Shown here in pieces: positions 359 to 8,718 of a DNA stretch of 8,911 nucleotides. Every line of letters begins with the position of its first letter. Position 1 is the first letter of the stretch. The notes under the pieces were generated by a model. It had not been told where the DNA came from. It searched no databases and saw only the letters and a list, made by a program, of their open reading frames with translations. Source of the DNA: Nitrospinota bacterium (lineage in GTDB: Bacteria; Nitrospinota; Nitrospinia; JACRGO01); NCBI GenBank assembly GCA_016212295.1, contig JACRGO010000086.1:1-8911 (forward strand). The letters are read 5' to 3'. The position numbers and the translations under genes were made by a program.

Positions 359-757
359 TTACTGTGATCCCTTCAGCTCTTTTAATTCCTTGAAAGGCAC
401 TTTTTCCCATGCGTCCTTTAAGGTGGTAAGGACGTTTAGCACGTGGTCCAGATTCTTGATCTGATTGCTGAAGTTGGCTTCGGTAAGTTGTTGGTTTACA
501 TGAAAATATAAATTGCTTAATTTCCCCGCGACTTCCCCGCCCTTTTGAAAATCCAGGGAGCTTAATAGCTCATTCACGATATTCATCGCCCTGCCTATCG
601 CTTTTCCTTTTCCCGCTATGTCATTCTTTTGTAACTTTACCTTGGCTTCATTGATGAATTTTATCGCCCCTCCGTAAAGCATTATTATCAGAGTTTTTTG
701 GTTCGCGGATGTTATTTGGGTCCTCTGGTACTGCTTATAAGCATTTGCCGCATACAT
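359..757 (-). CDS. fliS: Flagellar export chaperone FliS
   Basis: FliS is a small cytoplasmic helical-bundle chaperone. It binds the C-terminal helix of newly made flagellin, stops it polymerising early and presents it to the flagellar export gate. The 132-residue length is normal for the family. The N-terminus shows the typical pattern: an A-Y-x-x-Y-x-x-T-x-I-x-x-A segment followed by L-I-I-M-L-Y-x-G-A-I-x-F-I (about residues 24-36), with the family-typical N-E-L-L-x-S-L-D near residues 62-69. The ATG is preceded by AAGGGAG (768-774) at 10 bases, which supports this start. The gene lies 21 bp downstream of fliD on the same strand, the usual fliD-fliS order, and is probably cotranscribed from the sigma-28 promoter upstream of fliD. 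No flagellin gene is in the window. Confidence 0.95.
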   Translation of the reverse strand: MYAANAYKQYQRTQITSANQKTLIIMLYGGAIKFINEAKVKLQKNDIAGKGKAIGRAMNIVNELLSSLDFQKGGEVAGKLSNLYFHVNQQLTEANFSNQIKNLDHVLNVLTTLKDAWEKVPFKELKELKGSQ

Positions 758-778
758 ATTTTTTTATCTCCCTTGGAA

Positions 779-2503
779 TCAATAATACCTTCTATTATAA
801 TTCATACTGTTGAGCTGGCTGGACATGAATTGGCTCTGGCCCTGCATTGCCCCTAAAACGCCTTCCAGGTTAGCAAATCTTCTCTTGTATTCATCCTCCC
901 GCCTCACTAAAATGTCCTCTTGAAATTTTATTTTCTTGGCATTCTCAGTGATGGCATCTTCTATGTTTTTTGTCTTGTCGGAAAATCTTCCATCAAAAAC
1001 ATTGAGGTTATAAATTTCCCTGCTTATTTTTTCAGCAACTCCTAATGATAATGAAACAGAGCCGATGCTGCTGTAACCAGTAATACTATTATCGCCAAAT
1101 ACCGGATCGTTATTGGTGGTGGTTGTGATTGGGGCCGCGGCTTCGGCTATCCTCACCGTCAACCCCTTGGCAATACCAGTGGAACCTTGCAAAAACCTTC
1201 CGTTGCCAGTGGCGGTGTACTGATTTCCCGCTGAATCCTTAAAGTATCCCTGGACGTTGCCTGATGAATCCGTGCCGGTAAAGTGAGTGGTATAGGTCCC
1301 GGATGAGGTGTCCCTGATTTGGCCGACGAAGGTAACTGAAGTGTTCGATTCTGTACCGCTTGCCACGAAAATGTTGGCCACTCCGGCATGGTCATTGGCT
1401 ATGCTTTCGTCTAGCTTTGCGTTATCGATTGTCAAGCTCCCGTCCTGCTTACTGGTGGTAATTCCAATGGAAGCCAATGAGGTATAAGTCCCGGTGAGGC
1501 CTGTTACTTCGTTTGCCGCCAAATTATTCATGGTGGAGAGGACCCCCAGCAGGGTTGAATCACCGAACAATGGGAGGTTTGGCTTGTTAGCCGGGTCGAA
1601 GGCGGCATAGTCATAACTTGTGTTCTTCTGGATCAACTGCTTGGTCTCATTAAATTTCGACACGAAATTAACGATTTTCTCCTTTAAGGATGTGTCGTTC
1701 TTGGCAAAGGAAATGGTCCCCGACCCCGCGTTATTGATCTGGATGGTGGTTTTGTCGATCAAATCCGAGAACGTGTTGCTTGGCCTTGCAATTGTCTGGC
1801 CTCCAAAAACGATTTGAGCGTCCTGGGCCGCCTGCAACTCTGAAAAACTCAAGACAGCATTGGGATAAACATCAGTCCCAAGCACTGAAAAAGGCGTGGC
1901 GCTGTGCTGGACAGTAATTGCGTTGGCCGCTCCGACCTCATCAGAGGTAAGGATGAGGTGATTGGGCGTTGCGCTGGAACCGTCATCAATAATAGAGGCG
2001 GTCAAACCCAAATTGGCGGCATTTATGGAAGTCTTTAGTTTTTCCAGTGTGTTGTTCGTGCCGTCCAGTGAAATCGTGAAATCGGTCGTGGTCCCTCCCA
2101 TGGCAACGGAAAAGGTCCCTGGCTGCAGGGTCCCGCTATCCTCAACGCCGGCGCTCATGATCCGGTGGCTTTTGGCCAATCTATTAACAGTTATATCAAA
2201 GTTTTGTTCACTGGTCACCCCAGTGGAAAGAATTGAAACAACACTCCTGGTATCCTGGGAGTTGTTATTAGAAAAGGAACTGGTAATAGGACTCAGGTCG
2301 GAAAGGGTTTTCATGGAATTGGCTATGGTTTCCAACTCGGAAATTTTGCCCTTGACGTCGCTCCAGGTCTTCAGTTGATCCTGATAGTCATTCTGCTTGG
2401 CTTTCAGCAGGTTAACGGGCCTGCGCTCAAGGTCCATAAGCTTTGTGGTCATGCTGGCGAAATCAACGCCTGAGGACAGTCCTGAAACAGAAAAGGTCGA
2501 CAC
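779..2503 (-). CDS. fliD: Flagellar hook-associated protein 2 (filament cap protein FliD)
   Basis: FliD forms the oligomeric cap at the tip of the flagellar filament, under which exported flagellin subunits fold and insert. The 574-residue product has the family layout. An N-terminal D0/D1 segment (about 1-100) opens with S-G-L-x-S-G-x-D and is followed by a heptad-rich helix. A Ser/Thr/Gly-rich beta central part follows, and then a C-terminal coiled coil (about 505-565) ending in the typical R-R-E-x-x-Y-x-R-R-F-A-x-L-E and Q-x-Q-F-M-S-S-Q-L pattern. Residues about 385-445 look like extra beta-rich sequence inside the C-terminal domain, just after the V-A-N-I-F motif. The start is a GTG, chosen because AAAAGGAG lies 9 bases upstream and because the protein then begins M-S-T as in other FliD proteins. 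It is transcribed with fliS. Confidence 0.95.
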   Translation of the reverse strand: MSTFSVSGLSSGVDFASMTTKLMDLERRPVNLLKAKQNDYQDQLKTWSDVKGKISELETIANSMKTLSDLSPITSSFSNNNSQDTRSVVSILSTGVTSEQNFDITVNRLAKSHRIMSAGVEDSGTLQPGTFSVAMGGTTTDFTISLDGTNNTLEKLKTSINAANLGLTASIIDDGSSATPNHLILTSDEVGAANAITVQHSATPFSVLGTDVYPNAVLSFSELQAAQDAQIVFGGQTIARPSNTFSDLIDKTTIQINNAGSGTISFAKNDTSLKEKIVNFVSKFNETKQLIQKNTSYDYAAFDPANKPNLPLFGDSTLLGVLSTMNNLAANEVTGLTGTYTSLASIGITTSKQDGSLTIDNAKLDESIANDHAGVANIFVASGTESNTSVTFVGQIRDTSSGTYTTHFTGTDSSGNVQGYFKDSAGNQYTATGNGRFLQGSTGIAKGLTVRIAEAAAPITTTTNNDPVFGDNSITGYSSIGSVSLSLGVAEKISREIYNLNVFDGRFSDKTKNIEDAITENAKKIKFQEDILVRREDEYKRRFANLEGVLGAMQGQSQFMSSQLNSMNYNRRYY

Positions 2504-2512
2504 TGTTTTTAG

Positions 2513-2520
2513 CTCCTTTT
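2513..2520 (-). promoter_or_regulatory. Ribosome binding site of fliD, fixing a GTG start
   Basis: AAAAGGAG on the minus strand lies 9 bases before the GTG at 2501-2503. This strong Shine-Dalgarno match decides the start codon of fliD despite the absence of an ATG there. Confidence 0.8.
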
Positions 2521-2545
2521 ATTTCTTAAATTCTCTTACTCTATT

Positions 2546-2573
2546 TTATCGGATTTTTCAAAGTTTTTCTTTA
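2546..2573 (-). promoter_or_regulatory. Sigma-28 (FliA) type promoter for fliD-fliS
   Basis: On the minus strand, TAAAG (2573-2569) and TCCGATAA (2553-2546) closely match the known sigma-28 elements TAAAGTTT and GCCGATAA; the -10 element matches at 7 of 8 positions. The gap from TAAA to the -10 element is 16 bases against the usual 15. Transcription would start near 2539, giving a leader of roughly 36 bases before the fliD GTG, with the ribosome binding site inside it. Late flagellar genes such as fliD and fliS are classic FliA targets, so motif and context agree. The start site itself is inferred. Confidence 0.75.
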
Positions 2574-2591
2574 TTATTTTCTTCTGAATCT

Positions 2592-2614
2592 TCCGCCTGT
2601 GCGCCTATGCGCCT
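2592..2614. repeat. Short tandem octamer repeat in the fliD-mutS2 gap
   Basis: Three near-identical 8-base units read AGGCGCAT / AGGCGCAC / AGGCGGA on the minus strand (written 2614 down to 2592). An ATTCA word sits next to them at 2622-2626 (TGAAT on the plus strand), like the ATTCA beside the larger CGCAAAG-type inverted repeat at 5244-5406. A further CGCAT/CGCAA pair lies at 2654-2665, running into the last codons of mutS2. This looks like a degraded relative of the other intergenic repeats in the window; no second arm is clear. Confidence 0.4.
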
Positions 2615-2658
2615 TTGTTCCTGAATAACCGCGTTGGTTTTTTGCCACAACCACGCAT

Positions 2659-5070
2659 TTACGCAAAAACAACGCCACTATCCCCTGTGGATTTATCCAA
2701 CTCCACCACAGTGACCCCGTTTCCGCCTTCATGGGGATAGCCTGGACGAAAACCAAGATGCGAGGGAAATTCCTTGAGAAAGCCCAATACTTTTTCCTTA
2801 ACAGCCCCTGTTCCAATGCCATGGATAATTTTCACCTCTGAAGCCCCGGCAAGGATCGCGGAATCCATGAAACCCGCCAATACCCCGACAGCCTCGTCAG
2901 CGCGAAGTCCACGCAGGTCGCATGTTCCGGAAAAAGCGGACCTTGGGGCCTGGTCCAAAAGAATGGTAGTCTCTTTCTTTTTCTCCCTCCCCTTTTCACC
3001 GGTTTTCCTCTCAAACCCTCTTATTAATGACGTGGGGACCGAGGTTTCAAAGTTGCCCATTTTAACCTTGACGGTCCCTTGGCCGGAAGGCGCTTCCAGC
3101 AATTCTCCCCGGAACCTCATGCTGGGTATTTCCACTATATCCCCAGTTTTTAGTGATTGCAATGGAATATCGGCCTGGGGAGGGCAAAGGGATTCAAACC
3201 GGGGACGGACCATGGCGTTCAATCGGGCCTCCACCTTTCCAGCCCCCTTCCTGGACGGGCCGGCTTTCCAGTCCTCCAATACTCTTCGTATCTCCTTTTT
3301 CGCGTCCGCCACTTCCTGGGTTAGCCGCTTCCGTTTGTCCTTGTTAAAGGTTTCCAGTTGTCCGCGCGCTTCCTCCAAGGCCCTCCTCGCTTCCTCCACG
3401 TCCTCCCGCAGCTTTTCCCGCAAGGATTGAACCCGGGCGCTTTCCCTTTCAAGCCTCTCCCTCTCCTCCCCCAACCCGGCCAAAAGCCCATCCAGTCTGC
3501 GGTCCTTCCCTTCCAGCAAGTTTTTGGAAAACTCAAGAATTTCCTGGTCCATTCCAAGTCTTGAGGCGATCTCCAAGGGAGAACTCCTTTCAGGCAGCCC
3601 CAGAGCCAGGCGGTAGGTGGGGGCCATCTTTTCCAGATCGAACCCGAAGCCCATGTTGAGAAAATCCGGCCTGGTTTGCGCAAGCGCCTTAAGTGAGTTG
3701 TAATGCGTTGTCACCGCCACCATTATTTTCCTTTGAGTGAAATGAACCAGTATGGCCTCCGCCAATGCCGCCCCCTCCTGGGGCTCGGTGGAAACCATCA
3801 ATTCGTCCAATAGGACCAGCGAGCCTGGTCCTGCTGAATTCATTATGCCTATGATGTTGGCCAAGTGCGCCGAGAAGGTGGAGAGATTCAAATGGATGTT
3901 CTGTTCATCCCCTATATCAGCGTAGACTTCCGGGAAAAATGGGAGCTTTGAGCCGGTCCCGGCCGGGACTGGGAGTCCCGCCGCGGCCATCAAGGCCATC
4001 AATCCGATCATTTTCAGGGCCACGGTCTTCCCGCCTGTGTTGGGTCCTGAAATGATGACGCCACGGACATTTTCCCCGGTTATTATTGTGTTACCGATAG
4101 CCGCGGTCTTTTTCTCAGCCAAGAGAACCGGATGCCTGGCGTTCAGCAGATGGATTCCGCCGGACCTCAAAAGTTCCGGATAACACGCATCCATTTCCCT
4201 GCCGAATCCGGCAATGGCCTGCATGACATCCATCCTTGTGAGGCATTGAAAATTAACTCTTAGCGCGTCTCCGGCCAGAGCCGCCTCCCTGGTTACGCTC
4301 TCTAAAATCCGCAAGGCCTCACGCTCAATCTCCATTTCAACTATCTTCAGGCTGTTGTTTAAATCAACCAGTTCGGCTGGCTCAAGGAACAGCGTCGCGC
4401 CGGACGATGACATCCCGTGGACGATCCCCGGCGTCTTGGAGCGGCTTTCCACCTTGATGGGAATGACGTATCTCTGCTCCCTTTCCGTGTAGTATCTGTC
4501 CTGCAGGTGGGGCGCAAAGCGGGGAGAGTCTAAAATCTTTTCAATTTTTTTAGTGATGGCGGAGCGCAGTGAGCCGGCTTTTTTTCTCAGGGCCGACAAT
4601 TCCGGGCTTGCGTTTTCCCTTAACTCCCCTTCTTCGTTGATAGTCTGCATGATCCTCTTGCGCAGGCCGGGGACCTCCATAAGAGAGGAGGCCAGGGGAA
4701 AAAGAAATGGAATGGATTCAGGGGATATCTTCCTGAAGTAACGCGCCATGCCCTCGGAAATCTGAAGGAAACCGGCCAGGGCCTTTAATTCCTTAGGCTC
4801 AAGCGCTATCGCCCTGGACGCCTTTTCCAAAAGAGGAAGGACGTCATGGAAGACGCAGGCAGGCGGCGAGGGATCGGATTGAAGCAGGGCCGCCATCTCC
4901 CCTGCCGCCTGGGAAGCTTCGAGGGCTCTTTGGTAATCCGGCAGAGGCGCCAGTTTCAGGCATTCCCGCCTCCCTGATTCTGAAAAGGCCCGCGCGGCCA
5001 CCATGGCCTGGACTGCGTCCCAGCCGAGACGCTTCATGGAATCCAGGATCAAATTATTTTTTGTCAACAT
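2659..5070 (-). CDS. mutS2: Endonuclease MutS2 (RqcU-type MutS-family ATPase with Smr domain)
   Basis: MutS2 proteins are MutS-like ATPases that lack the mismatch-recognition domain. They have been linked to suppression of homologous recombination and, in Bacillus, to sensing and splitting collided ribosomes. With the start at 5070 the product has 803 residues, close to the family norm. Core and clamp-like helices occupy about 1-310. Walker A is GPNTGGKT (342-349), followed by N-L-S-T-F-S-A-H (395-402), Walker B L-V-L-L-D-E-L (418-424) and T-T-H-Y (454-457). A long charged coiled coil (about 505-605) leads to a KOW-like beta segment (about 638-690) and a C-terminal Smr domain (about 717-793) with C-D-L-R-G and H-G-I-G-T-G. 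After Walker B the usual G-A-G-T-D-P reads M-V-S-T-E-P. The frame runs open to 5193, but the extra 41 residues are unlike MutS2. An in-frame ATG at 5037 is a weaker alternative start. Confidence 0.93.
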   Translation of the reverse strand: MLTKNNLILDSMKRLGWDAVQAMVAARAFSESGRRECLKLAPLPDYQRALEASQAAGEMAALLQSDPSPPACVFHDVLPLLEKASRAIALEPKELKALAGFLQISEGMARYFRKISPESIPFLFPLASSLMEVPGLRKRIMQTINEEGELRENASPELSALRKKAGSLRSAITKKIEKILDSPRFAPHLQDRYYTEREQRYVIPIKVESRSKTPGIVHGMSSSGATLFLEPAELVDLNNSLKIVEMEIEREALRILESVTREAALAGDALRVNFQCLTRMDVMQAIAGFGREMDACYPELLRSGGIHLLNARHPVLLAEKKTAAIGNTIITGENVRGVIISGPNTGGKTVALKMIGLMALMAAAGLPVPAGTGSKLPFFPEVYADIGDEQNIHLNLSTFSAHLANIIGIMNSAGPGSLVLLDELMVSTEPQEGAALAEAILVHFTQRKIMVAVTTHYNSLKALAQTRPDFLNMGFGFDLEKMAPTYRLALGLPERSSPLEIASRLGMDQEILEFSKNLLEGKDRRLDGLLAGLGEERERLERESARVQSLREKLREDVEEARRALEEARGQLETFNKDKRKRLTQEVADAKKEIRRVLEDWKAGPSRKGAGKVEARLNAMVRPRFESLCPPQADIPLQSLKTGDIVEIPSMRFRGELLEAPSGQGTVKVKMGNFETSVPTSLIRGFERKTGEKGREKKKETTILLDQAPRSAFSGTCDLRGLRADEAVGVLAGFMDSAILAGASEVKIIHGIGTGAVKEKVLGFLKEFPSHLGFRPGYPHEGGNGVTVVELDKSTGDSGVVFA

Positions 5071-5076
5071 GGCAAA

Positions 5077-5106
5077 ATTATAACCCGATTTAATGTCCAA
5101 TGACAG
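5077..5106 (-). promoter_or_regulatory. Sigma-70-like promoter of mutS2, possibly giving a leaderless mRNA
   Basis: On the minus strand a perfect TATAAT (5082-5077) is preceded at 18 bases by CTGTCA (5106-5101), which matches TTGACA at 4 of 6 positions. Only six bases (TTTGCC) separate TATAAT from the mutS2 ATG at 5070-5068, so a normal start site would fall on or beside the A of the ATG. No Shine-Dalgarno sequence is visible in front of this ATG, which agrees with a leaderless transcript. This rests on motif spacing alone. Confidence 0.5.
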
Positions 5107-5225
5107 GACATCTTGTCTGCCACGCCAAAGGACAAAAAAAGGACTGAAAGGAAAAAAATTAAGGGCGTGACGCCATACCTTATTGTTATGCAAACGAATG
5201 GAGTTTACGGCATGTGTCTTGCTAT

Positions 5226-5434: not shown

Positions 5435-6115
5435 ATGGTAAAGAAAATTTTGATAACAGCCATAGCCGGATTTTTGCTTCAGCCGGGCCTTTCCGCAGCC
5501 TCTCAAGGGGATGAAATTTTAAAGGGAAAATGCGCTGAATGCCACGCCCTTTCCAAGCCGGAAAACCTCTCAAGGACCAGGACGTCTAGCCGCAAGGGAC
5601 AGGACCTCTATTACGCCGGAAGCAAATATAACAGGGAATGGCTCGTGAAATGGCTCCAAAGCCCAACCAGAATACGGCCTTCAGGCGGCTATGGCGAAGT
5701 AACCAGCAAAAACCTATCAAACCCTTCTTCCCTACACTTAAGCCTCTCCAGTGATGAGGCCGAGGCCGTTTCCCAGGCCATGATGAATTTAAAGGCCCCG
5801 GCTGATGTGGTTGTTCCCGGCCTGTATGAAAACAACCCGGAGAACGTTACTGACGGACTCTCCTATTATCGCAATAACGGCTGCCTTTCCTGCCATCAGC
5901 TTGCCCCGGATTTGGGAGGCAAACTGGCGCCGGAACTCTACACCGCCGGGGAACGAATGCAGCCCGATTATATCGCTTCCTTCATCCGGCATCCAAAGGA
6001 ATTCGACCCTTTCGTCAACATGCCAAATCTTTATAAATCCAAGGAGGCAGTGCAGAAGATCACTGAATATCTCTTGCATATTCCAGCCTCGAAAAATGTT
6101 GGTAAGACGCCCTGA
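5435..6115 (+). CDS. Exported diheme c-type cytochrome
   Basis: The 226-residue product is a periplasmic electron carrier of the class I cytochrome c type. Residues 1-22 form a signal peptide (M-V-K-K, hydrophobic stretch, L-S-A-A), so heme attachment would be periplasmic. Two CxxCH heme sites are present: CAECH at 33-37 and CLSCH at 150-154. The second domain keeps a normal later ligand region (N-M-P at 195-197) before a final helix. The first domain has the W-L-x-x-W-L-x-S-P pattern (69-77) but no Met-Pro where the sixth ligand is expected. H101 lies near that place, and the pair M116-M117 falls later, in the helix. No other respiratory gene adjoins it; the nearest neighbour is the convergent radical SAM operon. 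The electron partner is unknown. A two-domain class I cytochrome is well supported; a finer family is not. Confidence 0.88.
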   Translation: MVKKILITAIAGFLLQPGLSAASQGDEILKGKCAECHALSKPENLSRTRTSSRKGQDLYYAGSKYNREWLVKWLQSPTRIRPSGGYGEVTSKNLSNPSSLHLSLSSDEAEAVSQAMMNLKAPADVVVPGLYENNPENVTDGLSYYRNNGCLSCHQLAPDLGGKLAPELYTAGERMQPDYIASFIRHPKEFDPFVNMPNLYKSKEAVQKITEYLLHIPASKNVGKTP

Positions 6116-6304: not shown

Positions 6305-7588
6305 TCACTTAATTCTCTTTCCAAAGCTGGAGGAAAACTTTTCTCTCACCTTGTCCATCAACTCCGGGGTGATGACCGGAATGCCGTTAGATAGCGCGTA
6401 ATCCTCCACCCCCCTCCTTGCTATGGACCTTGCGAAAAATGGCACTCTTTTTAAACGGTCCTCTGCCTCCACTGTCCACCGTGGCCCGTTATTTTTACTC
6501 TGCTGTCCCTGAACCAAATCAAACTGGATTTCCGTGGCGATATTAACCACTTGCGCCCCGCCCTTTTCCGGATTGTACACGCACCAGAAATCCTCTCCCA
6601 TGCAGTCCCCGGTCTTAGCCAGGGCCCTGGCCCTGCATCCTCCGCAGAGCAGCTTGAATTCGCAGTCCTCGCATTTTCCGTTATATTTTGGACGCCGCAG
6701 ACTTCCAAACAGGGATGACGACCTCCAGATTTCAGCGAAACTCCTCTCCCTCACGTTTCCCGCGCTTTTTGACATATAAGGGCATGGGGTTACCTCCCCT
6801 TCCGGAGATATGCGGCAATAATTGGTCCCTGCCCTGCACCCGCCGACGTATCCCTTAAGAAGCGGTGAGTCCGGGTCCGCCTGGTACGCCACCCTTTTGA
6901 AGTGCGGAGCGCACTTGGCCCTGACCATCATCCCTGGATATTTCCCGTGCGCGTTGTAAAGAAATTTCAGGACCTCCTCGTACTGCTCCGGCGTGATGTC
7001 CGTCAGTTCCTCTCCCCTGCCTGTGCACACCAGGAAAAAGCAATTAAAGGCCACGGCCCCCAGTTCGTGGGCGAACTTGATGATGGAACCGATCTCATTT
7101 ATATTCCTCGTGGACACCGTGGTCTGAATCTGAAAATCCAGACCTTCCCGCTTCAGGGCCTCAATACCTTGCAGCGTCCCGTTCAAGGCCCCTGGGACCC
7201 CGCGAAACCTGTCGTGCGTTTCAGGGTCCAGGGAATCGATGCTAACCCCAACCCCCTTAACGCCGCTTTGGGAAAGCCTTCGGGCCATTGCGCCATCGAT
7301 TATGTTTCCGCCGGAGCCAACGACCACCATGAATCCCTTGGCTGTGGCGCATGAGGCGATATCAAAAATATCCGGCCTCAAAAGCGGTTCCCCGCCGGTG
7401 AGGATGAGACACGCCTGTGGATTGATCTCAGCCATCTGGCCGATGAGGACGCGGCACTCATCCAGCGACAATTCGTCCGCCGTCTCGCCGGAAAGGCTGT
7501 ATGCGTCCAGATAGCAATGCTCGCAGCGAAGCCCGCAGCGCTTGGTGACGTTCCATGATATGACGTAAGTTTCGAAAGCCACAGTCAA
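6305..7588 (-). CDS. NirJ/AhbD-like radical SAM protein with C-terminal PCP_red domain
   Basis: This 427-residue protein is a radical SAM enzyme with an auxiliary iron-sulfur (SPASM-type) region. C18-x3-C22-x2-C25 is the SAM cluster motif and G-G-E-P (65-68) the SAM-binding motif. The cysteines at 251, 258, 269, 306, 309, 315, 318, 329 and 336 form the C-terminal cluster region. Its pattern (G-C-R-A-G ... I-S-P-E-G-E-V-T-P-C-P ... G-N-V-R-E ... C-G-G-C-R-A-R-A ... T-G-D) is that of the heme and heme d1 enzymes AhbC, AhbD and NirJ. Residues about 369-420 (R-W-T-x-E-A-E-x-R-L-K-R-V-P-F-F-x-R) match the PCP_red domain known from the end of BchB/ChlB. I infer a tetrapyrrole substrate, with the exact reaction unknown. 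The start is a TTG in a TTGA overlap with the upstream gene's stop, with AAAAGG 5 bases before it; a GTG two codons later is possible. Confidence 0.85.
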   Translation of the reverse strand: MTVAFETYVISWNVTKRCGLRCEHCYLDAYSLSGETADELSLDECRVLIGQMAEINPQACLILTGGEPLLRPDIFDIASCATAKGFMVVVGSGGNIIDGAMARRLSQSGVKGVGVSIDSLDPETHDRFRGVPGALNGTLQGIEALKREGLDFQIQTTVSTRNINEIGSIIKFAHELGAVAFNCFFLVCTGRGEELTDITPEQYEEVLKFLYNAHGKYPGMMVRAKCAPHFKRVAYQADPDSPLLKGYVGGCRAGTNYCRISPEGEVTPCPYMSKSAGNVRERSFAEIWRSSSLFGSLRRPKYNGKCEDCEFKLLCGGCRARALAKTGDCMGEDFWCVYNPEKGGAQVVNIATEIQFDLVQGQQSKNNGPRWTVEAEDRLKRVPFFARSIARRGVEDYALSNGIPVITPELMDKVREKFSSSFGKRIK

Positions 7589-8718
7589 TAAAGCCTTTTC
7601 TGATTATAAAAAAACCATTTCATAAGCCTGAAAAAAAAGATGGAGCCCATCTGATTGGAGAGCGCCGAAAAATAATTCTTCCCGCCCAGGCATACCCTGC
7701 ATCTTGGGTGGACCACACGGCACTTTTTAAATCCCTCCACAACGGACAGGACCACATCGGAGTTCAAAAGGTCAGCCACGCTCGATTCCCTGACGTTCCC
7801 CACACGGGTCTTGCCGTCAAAGTCCTTGCAGCACAGGACCATGTCCCCGTTCCAGAGAATGCCGAAATGGTCAGTGAGGGCCGGGCAATACCCGAACCTG
7901 GACTCAACCATATTCCGGCCGCCCTTGCCGAAGGTATTTCCCCAACTGTTCAATAGATACGTCTCAAGATGGATGCCCGGGGCCACTTCCAGCACATTCC
8001 ATCTGTTAATGGAAATCCCGGCCAAGGCGTCCAATACCTTTTTCTCGCTCACCTCCCCGGCAATGCCGGGCATTTGGTGAAACAGCCTGGCCCACTCGGA
8101 AAAAACCCTTCTCAAAGCCCTGGTATCGTCAATGATATCCAACCGCCCCACGGCCTCTTTCACTGATTTGTTAAACTTCGTAACCAGGAAGTGTATCTTG
8201 ATGACTGCCTTTCCGCCGTTTGAGCGGAGGACCTGTATGGCGTCAAGAATTCCCCGCCGGTATTTCTCGTAAGTCATGCCCTTGGCCCTTCGGGTCTCGA
8301 AAGAATTCTCATCCGGCGTCTGCAAGGAGATATTCACCTGGTCCACCTCCAACTCCCTTAACATCCCGGCGGTTTCAGTGGACAGAAAACTTCCGTTTGT
8401 TGTGACCCCGGCGCGCAGTCCTCTCTCCCGGACATGCTTCACAATGAAAAAAAAATCGGGGTGGAGCATGGGCTCCCCCATTATGTGGAAGGTGACCTTT
8501 TCCGTGATATTGTTCCGCGCAAGGTCATCGATAACGGATTTCGCCAGGGCCGTATCCATCATCCCCGGCTTGCGGGACATTATGGTTTTTGGACAGAAGG
8601 AACAGTCGAAATTGCAGGCGTTTGTGAGTTCAAGATGCACTCGCTGGATTGGAAAATCTATAAGACCGGCGATCTTTCCTAGTTTGGAAGAAGCGGGAGA
8701 GCGGTTTTGGAGGGGCAT
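7585..8718 (-). CDS. Radical SAM/SPASM domain protein
   Basis: The product (377 residues) has the radical SAM signature C35-x3-C39-x2-C42 after a beta strand (R-V-H-L-E-L-T-N), a G-E-P motif at 81-83 and T-T-N-G at 106-109. A C-terminal SPASM region carries C278, C296, C297, C333, C340 and C343, around the typical G-Y-C-P ... W-N-G-D-M-V-L-C-C-x-D and G-N-V-R-E-S-S-V-A-D-L-L pattern. This predicts a SAM cluster plus one or two auxiliary clusters. The tail (about 359-372) is hydrophobic and aromatic and might touch the membrane. The substrate cannot be read from the sequence. SPASM enzymes include peptide modifiers, maturases and sugar-modifying enzymes. The ATG at 8718 is the first possible start after an in-frame stop at 8749-8751, yet no Shine-Dalgarno sequence is visible. 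It is the first gene of a two-gene operon with the PCP_red protein. Confidence 0.85.
   Translation of the reverse strand: MPLQNRSPASSKLGKIAGLIDFPIQRVHLELTNACNFDCSFCPKTIMSRKPGMMDTALAKSVIDDLARNNITEKVTFHIMGEPMLHPDFFFIVKHVRERGLRAGVTTNGSFLSTETAGMLRELEVDQVNISLQTPDENSFETRRAKGMTYEKYRRGILDAIQVLRSNGGKAVIKIHFLVTKFNKSVKEAVGRLDIIDDTRALRRVFSEWARLFHQMPGIAGEVSEKKVLDALAGISINRWNVLEVAPGIHLETYLLNSWGNTFGKGGRNMVESRFGYCPALTDHFGILWNGDMVLCCKDFDGKTRVGNVRESSVADLLNSDVVLSVVEGFKKCRVVHPRCRVCLGGKNYFSALSNQMGSIFFFRLMKWFFYNQKRLY

Follow-up and report, generated by a model that had tools for sequence, protein, structure and literature searches.

The window, i.e. the whole stretch of 8,911 nucleotides of Nitrospinota DNA analyzed in this study, contains a gene on the minus strand (positions 6305..7588) for a 427-amino-acid protein which, on family scores and phylogeny, is an AhbD/NirJ2-like paralog and not AhbD proper. 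A complete PCP_red domain (PF08369) was confirmed at the C-terminus of this protein. Furthermore, the same domain was newly found in Nitrospinota on an AhbD-type protein and on the unrelated ChdC/HemQ, so that the two known types of coproheme decarboxylase both carry it. From its homologies, we somewhat favor a role in porphyrin side-chain modification for this AhbD/NirJ2-type radical SAM enzyme, most likely as an O2-independent propionate decarboxylase of coproheme or a close relative.

Radical SAM core and family assignment

In the ORF list, the gene starts with TTG at position 7588; GTG at position 7582 is an alternative start, and the orthologs open with 'MAFETY'. The Pfam analysis revealed a Radical_SAM domain (PF04055) at residues 13-172 (E 3.8e-20), which contains the CX3CX2C cluster motif (residues 18-25; positions 7514..7537, minus strand) in alignment with AhbD, AhbC, and NirJ, and a SPASM domain (PF13186) at residues 251-310 (E 7.9e-13). 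The presence of both the motif and the SPASM domain assigned the protein to the radical SAM/SPASM enzymes. The best scores among the NCBIfam models were obtained with AhbD (332.7 bits) and NirJ2 (330.7 bits), followed by TIGR04053 (279.5 bits). All scores fell below the equivalog cut-offs: 500 bits for AhbD and NirJ2, and 515 bits for NirJ (score of 179). The scores for the peptide maturases were far lower: 137 of the 265-bit cut-off for MftC and 105 of 381 for PqqE.

The SPASM region (residues 226-336; positions 6581..6913, minus strand) contained eight cysteines, C226-X24-C251-X17-C269-X36-C306-X2-C309-X5-C315-X2-C318-X17-C336, and matched the complete motif of Methanosarcina barkeri AhbD, CX20-33CX17CX36-37CX2CX5CX2CX17-35C, in which they are the ligands of AuxI and AuxII (PMC10452713). 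In the alignment, all eight were invariant across 12 orthologs, and the AuxI ligands were missing in AhbC, NirJ, and TIGR04053. The loss of a SPASM ligand in the Nitrospinaceae-type orthologs was also considered and discarded; the cysteine that they lack corresponds to C258, outside the eight ligands.

A phylogenetic tree was constructed from 40 sequences, including one NirJ2-type sequence and two peptide-type outgroups, with the PCP_red tails trimmed (except for AhbDpcp_G015). The orthologs formed a single clade (support of 100/99) apart from AhbC/NirJ and the peptide-type outgroups. AhbD and TIGR04053 formed another clade (94/89), which excluded these orthologs, and the NirJ2-type sequence from Paenibacillus, on a long branch, joined the ortholog clade weakly (80/51). 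The initial annotation had recognized an AhbC/AhbD/NirJ pattern in the cysteine-rich region, and the heme-enzyme-like nature of the core was supported: the NCBIfam scores and tree both placed it on the AhbD/NirJ2 side, and not with the peptide maturases tested.

Since MftC and PqqE also carry full sets of eight SPASM cysteines, the motif alone cannot exclude a peptide substrate. A peptide- or protein-modifying SPASM enzyme, with PCP_red binding the substrate protein or a partner, is consistent with these cysteines, with the action of many SPASM enzymes on peptides, and with a possible protein-protein role of PCP_red, which is small and helical and in its model also resembled AAA+ lids (see below). 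We nevertheless regard it as quite improbable: the family scores and tree favor the AhbD/NirJ2 side, and no PqqD-like gene was recognized among the listed ORFs of the window (at least 80 amino acids; at least 60 amino acids in the neighborhoods).

C-terminal PCP_red domain and its other carriers

The PCP_red domain (residues 371-415; positions 6344..6478, minus strand) was detected by Pfam, sequence searches, and a fold comparison. The Pfam match (E 9.4e-15) covered 45 of the 45 positions with 54.8 bits, against a gathering threshold of 32.5. When isolated, the 71-amino-acid tail matched Asr4154 (2l09; E 5.5e-9), the BchB domain from C. tepidum (2kru; E 7e-8), and the BchB/ChlB C-termini in the DPOR structures 3aek, 8vqi, and 2ynm. 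An alignment-free model of the tail (pLDDT of 76.7), in which predictor memory of 2kru and 2l09 is possible, gave Z values of 8.6 and 8.5 against these two structures, respectively, and a Foldseek E of about 1e-4. These results agreed with the initial identification of the tail as PCP_red, by sequence as well as by fold. A full-length model, built from two sequences only, was too poor (pLDDT of 47) and was set aside. After PCP_red, the next-nearest folds to the tail model (window positions 6308-6520) were the lid domains of AAA+ proteins (RuvB, MCM, and RuvBL), a likeness that is possibly a mere common helical arrangement. A histone-like or DNA-binding role for the tail was set aside, with these lids as the nearest non-PCP_red folds and within the range of such arrangements.

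Family searches found no BchB among the PCP_red proteins of the genome from which the window derives, by which a remnant of photosynthesis was ruled out, in line with the earlier remark that the window holds no photosynthesis gene. The same genome encodes a stand-alone PCP_red doublet (L132:3906-4472, plus strand) between lipB-like and nadB-like genes. In PMC, searched with little of the subscription literature in reach, no paper joining 'radical SAM' and 'PCP_red' was found, and a single paper contained PF08369.

Two types of coproheme decarboxylase in the phylum carried the domain. An AhbD-type protein with C-terminal PCP_red was encoded in three genomes of family f6 (L124:2904-4295, plus; L126:402-1844, minus; L127:3502-4869, plus); the one protein scored reached 455.7 bits in a match split by an insertion. 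In f6, these genes adjoin a universal stress protein gene, which itself carries PCP_red. In the tree, AhbD-PCP_red fell among AhbDs with no tail, which implies either two or more separate fusions of PCP_red to radical SAM proteins or a loss of the domain. On the other hand, ChdC/HemQ (PF06778) with N-terminal PCP_red was found in Nitrospinaceae-like genomes (L118:2187-3146, plus; L117:1927-2892; L080-L085). All seven ChdC-PCP_red loci read contained the motif IYPFVK(S/T)REWY, the Tyr of which we take as the putative catalytic residue of ChdC; ChdC has Tyr at the position of Ile in chlorite dismutases (PMC7611857).

Up to 11 PCP_red matches were found per genome, and the carriers included universal stress proteins, zinc-ribbon proteins, and stand-alone doublets or triplets. 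Two-domain universal stress proteins contained two to five copies (L120:1213-3261, plus; L128:2626-4947, minus; L003:1267-2691, minus), and some proteins of this group added a rubredoxin-like or zinc-ribbon domain. A single protein (L131:2195-3625, minus) combined at least three copies with a rubredoxin-like domain and a heme-oxygenase-like diiron domain. Since PCP_red is common on stress proteins and alone, the domain is not heme-specific, and by itself is no proof of tetrapyrrole binding. The tetrapyrrole link proposed in the initial annotation was strengthened by AhbD-PCP_red and ChdC-PCP_red in relatives.

The wide distribution of the domain, from stress, zinc-ribbon, and diiron proteins to stand-alone forms, is also what may be expected of a mere stability, oligomerization, or docking module of the phylum, uninformative on the substrate. 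We consider this rather unlikely, because it is hard to attribute to chance that the domain is joined to two coproheme decarboxylases of unrelated type as well as to an AhbD paralog, and because the enzyme in which PCP_red was originally recognized acts on a tetrapyrrole. A broader proposal, which we hold only tentatively and rate slightly lower, is that PCP_red is a general tetrapyrrole module that became attached, in independent events, to AhbD, ChdC/HemQ, and a third enzyme, AhbD-like and with a new reaction on porphyrin side chains, while its stress-protein and stand-alone forms would carry or guard porphyrins.

Heme routes and gene neighborhood in Nitrospinota

A scan of contigs with close-relative patterns revealed a relative with 76-77% identity at a single locus in a Nitrospinia MAG. 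Matches with E ≤ 1e-60 were present in 49 of the 60 genomes of the class. They were orthologs (45-100% identity) in 46 of these genomes, every match extending into the PCP_red tail, and AhbD-type proteins only (37-40% identity) in the remaining three. AhbC was found in 6 of the 60 genomes, and the paralog was retained mostly where the ahb route is missing. The genome of the window encodes AhbC and AhbD as a distinct pair on a different contig, with AhbD above the cut-off (508 bits), and family searches found neither HemY nor HemH, suggesting that this genome uses the siroheme route. The initial proposal of an uncharacterized branch of heme or heme d1 synthesis was not supported: AhbC and AhbD are standard, and for cytochrome cd1 the genome yielded only weak and partial propeller (Cytochrom_D1) matches. 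A role in heme d1 synthesis was rejected on these matches and on the missed NirJ cut-off.

Of the 60 genomes in the class as a whole, 50 had HemY and 47 had HemH, while HemN above the cut-off was found in none and HemF in one; several genomes are incomplete and individual absences are weak. This distribution suggested a dependence on coproheme decarboxylation in most of the class, and the genomes with HemY and HemH appear to follow the coproporphyrin route. This route needs a coproheme decarboxylase: ChdC/HemQ, or AhbD in some organisms (PMC7242693). Strong ChdC-type matches were found across genome families f5, f7, f8, and f9. Two genomes (G002 and G003) encode AhbD-type proteins of 496 and 486 bits (L135:3141-4331, minus; L136:4603-5640, minus) together with HemY and HemH, and without AhbC; their coproporphyrin route may end with AhbD.

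In a narrow form of the decarboxylase reading, the paralog would be a second coproheme decarboxylase that converts coproheme to heme b in place of AhbD or ChdC when the oxygen or redox conditions are different. The full AhbD cysteine motif, the PCP_red shared by AhbD-PCP_red and ChdC-PCP_red, and the service of AhbD in the coproporphyrin route of some organisms (PMC7242693) are consistent with this, as is the finding that the paralog was the only AhbD-type match in several f6 genomes; however, three of the latter are 73-82% complete and may lack AhbD-PCP_red through incomplete assembly, and the contig of G019 stops just behind the neighboring stress-protein gene. The stronger claim that the paralog is the sole coproheme decarboxylase of f6 was dropped, as the AhbD-PCP_red protein is present in this family. 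A plain duplicate of heme synthase would be redundant because AhbD coexists with the paralog in the genome of the window and ChdC-PCP_red does so in Nitrospinaceae-like genomes, and such long coexistence implies that the substrate, or the occasion, of the paralog differs from theirs. Its long separation from AhbD and coexistence with it favor a different substrate, and we judge the narrow form somewhat unlikely.

No tetrapyrrole gene adjoins the paralog in the window. A second radical SAM/SPASM gene (377 amino acids; positions 7585..8718, minus strand; ORF list, Pfam, and NCBIfam) lies upstream, with a 4-base overlap with the TTG start; a 46% identical gene was found near the ortholog in one relative, and the gene was otherwise unconserved. 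A convergent gene for a c-type cytochrome (226 amino acids, two CXXCH motifs; positions 5435..6115, plus strand; ORF list and Pfam) faces the paralog, an arrangement that was also unconserved among the ortholog loci. The remainder of the window (positions 359-5193) encodes FliS, FliD, and a MutS2-type gene, by Pfam.

A different cytochrome c, with one CXXCH motif (268-321 amino acids), was encoded divergently beside the paralog in 13 of the 14 Nitrospinaceae-like loci; its N-terminal domain (e.g. L071:10412-11314, plus, and 12 homologs) had no Pfam name. This association raises the alternative that the paralog provides the monoheme cytochrome with a modified heme or a modified precursor of heme. 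Relatives of TIGR04053 in Thermus and haloarchaea, which lie near genes for cytochrome c, nitrite reductase, halocyanin, or hemG, point in the same direction. The monoheme gene was, however, absent from the window-type loci (f1, f2, and f6), and the diheme cytochrome of the window resembled it only weakly, in the heme domain alone, and is not clearly part of the system. Moreover, what is normally attached to form the heme c of such cytochromes is unmodified heme b. We consider a cytochrome-linked modification unlikely.

Putative reaction and comparison with known systems

The domain composition, cysteines, clade, tail conservation, and fusions are observed, while what the enzyme acts on and what its tail does are inferred, and the proposed reaction is drawn from homology to AhbD, in which propionates are decarboxylated with the radical and SPASM clusters (PMC11306076; PMC10452713). 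By analogy, the N-terminal cluster would generate a 5'-deoxyadenosyl radical, which would abstract hydrogen from the beta carbon of a porphyrin propionate, with loss of CO2, and the leftover electron would be removed via the two SPASM clusters. The C-terminal PCP_red would be accessory, either holding the tetrapyrrole or docking a partner or donor. The wide margin by which the AhbD cut-off was missed (333 vs 500 bits), a clade apart from AhbD, the coexistence with AhbD or ChdC-PCP_red, and the lack of an adjoining tetrapyrrole gene in the window speak against this reading, and the assignment should be regarded as provisional.

The name PCP_red refers to chlorophyll synthesis. The occurrence of the domain on both unrelated types of heme-finishing enzyme and on a third conserved paralog, in a non-photosynthetic phylum, suggests a wider role in porphyrin handling, with PCP_red as a general helper for heme-type pigments; as the domain has only about 50 residues, this role is testable. 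Nitrospinota include the main marine nitrite oxidizers. Since most of the class apparently depends on coproheme decarboxylation, the enzyme is relevant to the assembly of the many cytochromes of abundant nitrifiers.

Among known enzymes, AhbD (TIGR04545; Methanosarcina barkeri and Desulfovibrio) is most similar to the 427-amino-acid protein, with radical SAM and SPASM domains, CX3CX2C, eight cysteines with the AhbD spacing, and the top score; the differences are the score of 333 vs 500 bits, the separate clade, the PCP_red tail, and a loop that reads VCTGRG instead of the VPVGCG of AhbD. NirJ2 (TIGR04055; 330.7 bits) has the same cysteines, and the NirJ2-type sequence from Paenibacillus was weakly within the clade; however, the score was below the cut-off, no AhbA/B-type gene adjoins the paralog, and the NirJ2 model has no PCP_red. 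TIGR04053 ranked third in score (279.5 bits), shares about 35% identity, and has genes near those for cytochromes and nitrite reductase; it differs in lacking both the AuxI cysteines and PCP_red, and in belonging to the AhbD side of the tree. The tail resembles the C-terminus of BchB/ChlB (PF08369; 2kru and 2ynm) and Asr4154 (2l09) in sequence (E 5e-9 to 8e-4) and fold (Z 8.5 to 8.6), but the protein that PCP_red terminates is a radical SAM enzyme here and a nitrogenase-like subunit in the case of BchB. ChdC/HemQ (PF06778) of Nitrospinaceae-like genomes also carries PCP_red and, by family, also acts on porphyrin propionates, although with an unrelated fold, H2O2 chemistry, and PCP_red at the N-terminus.
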